A program made the position numbers and the translations under genes. This document shows, piece after piece, positions 34,132-35,414 of a DNA stretch of 64,000 bases; position 1 is the stretch's first letter, and every line of letters starts with the position of its first letter. The notes below the pieces were generated by a model that saw only the letters and a list, made by a program, of their open reading frames with translations, was not told where the DNA came from and made no database searches. Source of the DNA: Cellulosilyticum lentocellum DSM 5427 (GTDB lineage Bacteria; Bacillota; Clostridia; Lachnospirales; Cellulosilyticaceae); the NCBI RefSeq assembly GCF_000178835.2, contig NC_015275.1:3555001-3619000 (forward strand), given 5' to 3'.

Positions 34132-34412
34132 ATCACTCGCCTCCTTATATAAGACTATGTTACAGTCTCCCCCTAGGGATGAGTCAACTGTATTTTGTAA
34201 TGCTATCACCTTCATAAACCATCTTACCCTTTTTAAGCACAGCTAGCCTGTCCTATGAAAGTATCATTTCATAAAATAATGTAATCAATATTGATATACT
34301 CAAGACTATATCAATTAAAAATTTTTTTCAACGACTTTTTTAATTTTATTTTATAAATTTTGAATAGTAATAATTTTTTATCTTTAACTAAGGAATTCCT
34401 TTTCTCATCACA

Positions 34413-34423
34413 TATAATATAAT
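34413..34423 (+). promoter_or_regulatory. Probable -10 region of the structured RNA
   Basis: Two overlapping TATAAT hexamers (34413-34418 and 34418-34423) on the plus strand, just ahead of the structured region. The -35 (TTCCTT near 34396-34401) is weak, so the promoter call is moderate. Confidence 0.45.
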
Positions 34424-34832
34424 GTAAAGATAAAACAAATAACTTCTCGTAGCAGAATCACCACAGCTTCAATCTGAGGAACTGACCGGGTCAGCCAAGT
34501 CTCAATCTATTGTTATAGGTACCTCTGGACTTAAGGAAAATGTTCACTGATGCGCTGTAAAGGGAAGCGCTCTTTTATAAGTTATTTTATAATGCTTTAC
34601 ATTTAGCATTACCTTAAACAAAGTTTAAACCAGAGTCTTAAAGCCTTAGCTTCCTCATCATAAGGGTGCACCGGCCAAGACTTTTAAGGAGCTCCTCACT
34701 CATTGGTTTGACTTTTATAACTATCTTTGATGTGCTTACAAGATTAGTCATGTAAGTGCTGAGGAGCTGCGCCATGCCCCTTGATAGGTATGTCAGGTAG
34801 TTATAGAAGTTAAGCTTGGAGGCTGGTAAAAG

Positions 34833-34927
34833 AAAACGCCTAAGTCATGTGGTTATTGAACTGCCCCCAATAAGTTAGACCTGAAAATCTAACTTATTGG
34901 GGGCATCGCATGACTTAGGCGTTTTTT
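34833..34927 (+). terminator. Terminator of the structured RNA, stem interrupted by an inserted palindrome
   Basis: Outer stem AAAACGCCTAAGTCATG (34833-34849) pairs perfectly with 34909-34925 and is followed by TTTTTTATTT. The loop contains a second, independent 18-bp palindrome (34862-34905). Confidence 0.85.
34862..34905. repeat. IS3/IS150-end-like palindrome inside the terminator loop
   Basis: TGCCCCCAATAAGTTAGA and its exact complement with an 8-nt loop (CCTGAAAA). The element begins with TG and ends with CA, and the arm resembles terminal repeats of IS150-group insertion sequences. It looks like a minimal relic of two IS ends fused head to head, or a very small MITE. Confidence 0.5.
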
Positions 34928-34993
34928 ATTTATTCTTTTTTATCTTACACTTCTAATCTGCAACAATATCTAACCACTCTAAGGCTAAATAAA

Positions 34994-35414
34994 TCACCTC
35001 GTTACTGTATTAATATATTTGCTGATTGTACTTTTAATATAGCCCTCAAAATTCTCATCTGCTATTCGAATTTGAAAATCATCATATATCTCTACTATTC
35101 TCCAATTGTCATTTATAGCAAAACCACAGTAACAGTCCCCTACTACATAGTCTCCAAAATACAAAATCCCTTGAATCTCTTTGATTTTTCTTTTATAAAT
35201 CACCTCTGTTTCAATTACTCCATGAAATATACTAAGGCAAGTATCTATTTCAATATCTCCCCACCCTACTTCCCTTAAAAATTCAATATAATCTTTAGGT
35301 AAATCTGGATATTTTTTTTATATCTTTTTCTAATTCCTCTTCCAATATTTCTTCAAATTCATTGATTAACTGATAATTATTAAGTACTAACATTAATTCA
35401 TTATATCTCCCCAT
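34994..35414 (-). pseudogene. SUKH-1 (SMI1/KNR4)-type immunity-like gene, frameshifted in an A8 run
   Basis: The ATG at 35412-35414 has a GGAG site 8 nt upstream and opens a frame starting MGRYNELMLVLNNYQLI. At 35312-35319 there is a run of eight As (coding strand); with seven As the frame would continue as KYPDLPKDYIEFLREVGWGD and on into the 69-codon frame that ends at 34994 (ILYFGDYVVGDCYCGFAIND, NFEGYIKSTI). The joined 140-residue protein has the SUKH fold pattern. As given, translation ends shortly after the A-run. SUKH proteins are often immunity partners of polymorphic toxins. A real mutation, phase variation, slippage on the A-run, or a sequencing error could each explain the break. 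Confidence 0.68.

Follow-up and report, generated by a model that had tools for sequence, protein, structure and literature searches.

The question raised by this locus is whether a stretch of about 500 nucleotides with no evident protein product is a gene for a functional RNA and, if so, of what kind. The original prediction took it for a functional noncoding RNA, possibly of a new class or a diverged member of a known one. The unit spans about 34385-34927 on the plus strand of the window, by which we mean the whole 64,000-nucleotide stretch of the Cellulosilyticum lentocellum DSM 5427 chromosome that was analysed, and is about 500 nt long including its terminator. No reading frame of 50 aa or more was found in it, and its GC content is 40%, compared with 27% in the flanks and 35% in the window; both features had been described, as had the TATAAT-like boxes that are present in front. 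The fold energy gives z = -9.0 against dinucleotide shuffles, none of 100 shuffles being equally good, with the terminator contributing part of this signal. What had not been seen is that the unit is one of 38 copies in the genome. Homologues within that genome carry compensatory changes in the main helix, which bears out the prediction of a functional RNA, and no protein-coding relic was found. On the sequence evidence, the existence of a real family of structured RNA genes is close to settled. The locus itself appears to be an independent gene whose product is a structured noncoding RNA, about 500 nt long with its terminator and made up of two domains, a 5' domain closed by helices P1 and P2 and a 3' domain in which a pseudoknot crosses a long helix.

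The 38 copies are dispersed along a single contig of 4,714,237 bases, the 4.71-Mb chromosome. They are defined by a covariance model (R1) of part of the 3' domain (34613-34788), built from 36 copies and comprising 177 positions and 18 pairs. Searched against its own genome R1 gives 44 matches with E up to 1, of which 38 score at least 69.7 bits and the next 28.8. BLAST with the unit finds 41 places. Of these, 36 are copies of the unit, counting the window's own, the 35 others being 76-90% identical to it where they match; the remaining five are pieces of a palindrome from the terminator. Scraps of the RNA unit account for some of the R1 matches below the 38 and for one BLAST match. The 5' domain is wholly or partly absent from nine of the 38 copies, in several of which the promoter is joined directly to the 3' domain. 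The 29 copies with a complete 5' domain form our alignment A2, in which pairwise identity is 60-95% with a median of 76%. On comparison of 4-kb stretches the homology lies mostly between about -310 and +190 relative to the GGAGCTCCTCAC anchor and so runs from the promoter block to the end of the terminator; the copy boundaries derived in this way are approximate. The same comparison reveals another dispersed repeat, at most about 300 bp long, located upstream or downstream of 11 RNA copies (364549, 417141, 3942742, 742882, 487637, 4020943, 3443593, 3329418, 291492, 3059974 and 3546242).

All helices of the proposed fold lie on the plus strand. The 5' domain is closed by P1 (34422-34429/34595-34602), the 5' strand of which is near the predicted start of transcription, and by P2 (34437-34445/34579-34587), in which 91% of cells in the alignment are paired. 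All counted cells are paired in P3 (34451-34453/34569-34571), where one of the three pairs has letters in just three of the 29 copies, and likewise in hairpin H2 (34507-34510/34515-34518), where A-U is replaced by G-C in seven of the 29. The 3' domain (34613-34826) begins with hairpin P5 (34635-34637/34679-34681), which is nearly invariant with 98.8% of cells paired. The core of the long helix P6 (34711-34723/34798-34810) has 88.8% of cells paired and changes on both sides at five of its 13 pairs. It corresponds to a helix proposed earlier at 34708-34725/34796-34813, and is kept by compensatory changes, as are several helices that the original prediction did not contain. Crossing it is the pseudoknot PK, formed between 34691-34698 (GCTCCTCA) and 34760-34767 (TGAGGAGC). 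This had been foreseen as a 9-bp helix (34690-34698/34760-34768); 98.7% of its cells are paired and it is nearly invariant in the 29 copies, five of the eight pairs never varying. In a relative, G002, one U-A pair of PK is replaced by C-G and is therefore compensated.

How the 3' domain is closed is less firmly indicated. It is perhaps closed by CCAG (34630-34633) pairing with CTGG (34823-34826), which is 96.6% paired with no double changes, or by a helix of the original prediction that joins it to the 5' domain (34461-34470/34819-34826). The latter finds modest support, best as 34464-34470/34819-34825, with 81% of cells paired compared with 19-52% when the partners are slid. Its covariation score is 0.143, compared with 0.113 in shuffles, of which 9 in 500 are as high. 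The two pairings cannot coexist because both use the same CTG, and the closing helix is impossible in copies without the 5' domain. A proposed loop pairing (34475-34481/34651-34657) is 84% paired compared with 33-69% when slid, with no double change.

Taken together, the 40 named pairs of six helices have 93.9% of cells paired in A2, compared with 33-48% when the partners are slid by one to three columns. There are 41 cells with double changes against a shuffled mean of 14.1, and the covariation score is 0.173 against 0.114; in both cases none of 500 shuffles reached the observed value, though the shuffles for pairing and covariation ignore the relatedness of the copies. We also compared the duplex energy of each copy's own two arms with that of swapped arms, using 5000 permutations. 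The own arms are better for P1 (z = -4.5, 0/5000), P2 (z = -2.4, 27/5000), P3 (z = -4.6, 1/5000), H2 (z = -5.7) and P6 (z = -7.8, 0/5000), with unrelated control arms giving -0.2. In the 29 copies P5 gives a non-significant z of -1.5, and the test lends no support to the pseudoknot (-0.1), the CCAG/CTGG pairing (+0.7) or an inner hairpin (+1.1). Under a tree-aware null just five column pairs have E < 1, of which three are canonical and one, in H2, lies within a named helix; poor alignment of the P6 columns may hurt this test. Conserved secondary structure with compensatory changes, by which a new RNA class is recognized, is thus present in 29 of the 38 copies, and is weak under the tree-aware null. 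The original description is partly borne out, the closing helix with modest support and the loop pairing as no more than a candidate.

The copies have their start signals in common. In the window there is a -35-type block TAAGGA at 34389-34394 and, 16 bases after it, a -10-type block CATATA at 34411-34416, both on the plus strand and conserved in place among the copies. The general arrangement is a T-rich stretch, TTAGGGA, a spacer of 16 bases and CATATA, with the 5' strand of P1 next. This would place the start site about where P1 begins. TTAGGGA-N16-CATAT is exact in 31 of the 38 copies, the window copy with its variant TAAGGA being among the seven that depart from it. The exact motif with a spacer of 15-17 occurs 41 times in the genome, compared with three times for a reversed control; 31 sites are at RNA copies, one is at a scrap and nine are elsewhere. 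These nine include a tRNA-Gln gene, an operon encoding DUF1659 and DUF2922 proteins at 319064, and a decayed twin at 339172. The tRNA-Gln (CTG) gene, at 102095 (L146:1501-1608), begins right after a TTAGGGA-N16-CATAT block, and about 220 bp separate it from the promoter of a short RNA copy downstream.

The stop signals are also common to most copies. The strong terminator predicted behind the window copy is present at 34833-34926 on the plus strand, with a stem of 34833-34849/34909-34925 followed by a T run; this copy's stem was found with a 51-nt loop. A stem of at least 15 pairs, short-looped and followed by a T run, lies behind 30 of the 38 copies, compared with 0-1 in shuffled sequences and 0-2 in random windows. 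Inside the loop of the window terminator is a near-perfect palindrome of 44 nt (34862-34905), not noted originally, which matches other places in the genome outside RNA copies and is probably an inserted IS end or miniature IS, the assignment to an IS type being our presumption. Similar ends adjoin transposase-like ORFs in copy 671324 and in contig C15 of the relative G023 (L099). At three places IS-like ends or insertions are found in or beside the RNA terminator, as if its hairpins attract IS elements.

Does the RNA belong to a known class? There is no match to Rfam at the gathering threshold in the 64-kb window, nor any over the unit in 20 loci (15 further copies and five loci of relatives), a run that did find a T-box, a cobalamin riboswitch and CRISPR repeats. 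With E up to 10, 11 matches fall within 34200-35100, each far below gathering and of an improbable type (microRNAs, RAGATH and others), the microRNA precursors falling on the terminator. OLE, ROOL, GOLLD, HEARO, group I and II introns and RNase P (Rfam 15) are absent from these 11 and give no gathering-level match. OLE RNA is a large conserved noncoding RNA of Clostridia and Bacilli present in one copy, whereas here there are dozens of copies, no fixed partner gene and no Rfam match. ROOL and GOLLD, according to PMC12286853, are large noncoding RNAs that are pseudoknotted or complex and of unknown function, carried by phages and prophages and often located near tRNA islands; OLE is described there as forming RNA-only assemblies. 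The present RNA resembles ROOL and GOLLD in its size, its pseudoknotted or complex fold and its noncoding nature. It differs in having 38 chromosomal copies between varied ORFs and no match to their covariance models. Nor does it appear to be carried by phages: comparison of 34430-34860 with 50,697 phage records gave a single match of 23 nt, and two pattern scans of viral contigs gave 0 each. A looser pattern produced 27 matches in viral contigs, unsupported by R1. Association with tRNA genes is likewise not general, such genes being found in six of 37 loci, which together contain all 38 copies. Two copies have them near by: 102420 has a tRNA-Gln gene, and the diverged copy 1284226 is no more than about 200 bp away from nine tRNA genes in an array (L093:3251-4394). 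We found no published account of this RNA in a literature that was mostly open access, and the genus name is absent from the main texts of PMC8632094 and PMC8040213.

Beyond its own genome the family is rare, and the convincing relatives appear to be confined to the same bacterial family. Two of 24 family genomes match by BLAST (C. lentocellum and G023) and two by R1 (C. lentocellum and G002). Sporanaerobium hydrogeniformans XHS1971 (G023) has two decayed copies, and G002 has one clear copy and one partial. The partial copy, in C15 of G002 (L134), directly adjoins a CRISPR array with CRISPR-DR2 repeats. R1 lists 4 of 392 genomes at the level of the order and 3 of 391 at that of the class; the matches in G341, G343, G673 and G734 are near chance, leaving just C. 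lentocellum and G002 as convincing. A pattern scan of contigs from 84,980 species, a set in which our genome is possibly not included, gave no match to the 3' domain and three to the 5' motif, one being S. hydrogeniformans. A plasmid collection contained no match to the RNA unit. In G003, a species without a clear homologue, there is a promoter-linked noncoding folded stretch with a terminator (C57:44216, L187:1501-1830; z = -7.9) that scores weakly with R1 (12.1 bits, E = 0.029 unfiltered). It could be either a much-diverged relative or another RNA that belongs to the same regulon. A 9-bp pseudoknot considered for this stretch is at chance level, with 4 of 40 shuffles reaching 9 bp.

The promoter points to a possible regulator. 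DUF1659 and DUF2922 are the Pfam names of two small proteins in C. lentocellum and G006, and in our genome their operon (319064-319590, L175) is preceded by the promoter of the RNA family. In G006 (L141) a gene for a 169-aa protein with Sigma70_r2 and r4 domains is directly upstream of the same promoter and operon. The same order of sigma-70-family gene, promoter and DUF1659-DUF2922 recurs in G001 (L178), and by eye the pattern precedes the operon in G002, G017 and G018 too. The RNA copies thus have a promoter in common with a gene next to a sigma factor, as in an alternative-sigma regulon, and it is likely, judged from these arrangements, that the copies are controlled by the sigma factor. 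The DUF1659-DUF2922 operon and the sigma gene could form a small regulon.

In 12 relatives TAGGGA-N15-17-ACATAT occurs at 29 sites, compared with 20 for reversed controls, and the raw counts in relatives therefore show no clear enrichment. We inspected 14 of the 29 loci by eye, and two of these looked meaningless. A family of proteins of 234-433 aa (related by eye) is found behind the pattern in G003, in G006 and four times in G017 (L190, L196, L206, L207, L212 and L213); the two members scanned gave no convincing Pfam or NCBIfam match. In G003 an Amidase_2 gene also follows the pattern. An orthologue of the sigma factor was found in all seven genomes of the genus. The sole one found in C. lentocellum (4133181-4133681, minus strand, L182) has one in-frame TAG early in the gene. 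The gene is in two pieces in G002, and the matches in five relatives have no internal stop; thus in both of the genus genomes that R1 matches, the sigma gene looks broken. Adjoining it in five species is a conserved protein of about 155 aa (L182:2218-2697, L177:819-1427, L178, L179 and L181) that we take to resemble ComK. The two sigma-linked proteins scanned matched nothing in Pfam or NCBIfam, and the likeness to ComK is for that reason tentative.

The unit has probably moved. Copy 2720536 lies between two his genes, which we take to be hisF and hisA, with 727 bp between the ORFs. These genes are adjacent in four relatives (G003, G001, G005 and G002), where the gap between the BLAST pieces of the two genes is 38, 57 or 118 bp or nil; G004 and G006 gave no information. 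Insertion at this site is simpler than repeated loss. No clear signal of target-site duplication was found, the mean common string being 5.76 compared with 5.49 in mismatched pairs for 33 of the 38 copies, a test weakened by uncertainty in the exact ends.

The neighbours of the copies vary, and the tie to an immunity island suggested for the window copy is not general. When 248 ORFs near copies were sorted by similarity, no family recurred at more than seven of the 38; the widest group, ABC-type ATPases by eye, occurs at seven and the next at four, three and three. Because the neighbours differ and most copies have their own terminator, the RNA probably does not serve to switch an adjacent gene. 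The reading that best explains the observations as a whole is a family of structured RNA genes transcribed by an alternative sigma factor and with a product that acts in trans, to which we would give a probability of about 0.55. The trans part is drawn entirely from the lack of a cis pattern. As to function, an abundant trans-acting RNA is our first choice and a selfish element its main rival.

According to the latter, the unit would be a mobile RNA-coding element whose RNA, promoter and terminator serve its own copying with no gain to the host, as a passenger of SINE-like or miniature-transposon-like type that depends for its movement on an enzyme encoded elsewhere. The number and dispersal of the copies, the insertion between his genes, the decayed copies and scraps, and the near-confinement of convincing homologues to one genome are all what such an element would leave. 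Yet the copies are old (60-95% identical in the 29 aligned) and nonetheless 31 of 38 retain the exact promoter and 30 a strong terminator; their helices covary; and there is neither a target-site duplication signal nor a linked gene family at more than seven copies. We regard a purely selfish element as possible, though doubtful. The comparison with known dispersed repeats is instructive here. The bcr elements of the Bacillus cereus group, BOX elements and MITEs are intergenic, foldable and apparently mobile, and in dispersal, location, folding and apparent mobility the present copies are alike. They differ in that most are complete predicted transcription units of about 500 nt with a promoter class and terminator in common, in their covarying pseudoknotted fold, and in that no target-site duplication was found.

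An action in cis, as a bidirectional terminator or insulator, or through antisense transcripts that control convergent neighbours, is improbable. It would fit the orientation of the nearest downstream ORF (counted on mechanically defined ORFs of 90 aa or more), which is convergent at 27 copies and no more than 60 bp away in 15 of these, and the A run before and T run after many of the hairpins listed. Against this, the downstream ORF is co-directional at 11 of the 38 copies, the neighbours have no common theme, and a terminator would not need a 400-nt pseudoknotted RNA with a conserved promoter. That the stretch is a coding relic or the mRNA of a small peptide is very improbable. Most of the 29 rows of A2 do have a Shine-Dalgarno-like string and an ATG, in the form AAGGAAAATG or AAGGAAGATG followed by a few codons (about 34534-34560 in the window), but copies 2607157 and 3044890 no longer have the ATG, copy 2048225 has a shifted frame, the 5' domain that holds the ATG is missing or partial in nine copies, and there is no ORF of at least 50 aa. 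With at least two copies lacking the start, this site is probably structural. Scarcely credible is the remaining part of the original proposal, that the RNA is a diverged member of the OLE, ROOL, GOLLD, group I or II intron, RNase P or HEARO classes; size and pseudoknots are similar, whereas the Rfam searches of the window, the 15 copies and the five loci of relatives gave no gathering-level match, and the 11 matches at E up to 10 were all far below it.

Returning to the trans-acting RNA, the following mechanism can be envisaged. An alternative sigma factor of the sigma-70/ECF type would plausibly transcribe both the DUF1659-DUF2922 operon and the RNA copies, activating many loci simultaneously in one state of the cell, the unit having spread by a transposition-like step. 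The product might then be an abundant folded RNA, acting in trans by binding to one common partner, be it a protein, part of the ribosome or other copies of the RNA, and the copy number would set the dose. More tentatively still, a dedicated sigma factor could switch on the 38-locus pseudoknotted RNA along with DUF1659-DUF2922 to mass-produce an RNA, perhaps for an RNA-only or RNA-protein assembly, in a special state of the cell. The family would then be the bacterial counterpart of dispersed RNA genes that exist in many copies. Multicopy families of small RNAs are known in Qrr and csRNA, where several related RNA genes are under one regulator. In comparison, the present family has many more copies, and its RNA is much longer and heavily structured, with a regulator that we infer.

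Few bacterial RNAs are large and ornate, and the best-known of those lacking a function are phage-borne. The occurrence of dozens of copies with common start and stop signals is unusual, and no Rfam family matches them. The 38 natural paralogues in one complete genome provide an internal alignment for working out the fold, and the promoter points to a regulator and to a link with DUF1659 and DUF2922, both Pfam domain families of unknown function. The family also raises the question of how a whole RNA transcription unit gets copied around a bacterial genome. On our best reading of the sequences, C. lentocellum contains a new class of large, probably trans-acting RNA, whose many loci would be transcribed simultaneously through an alternative sigma factor.
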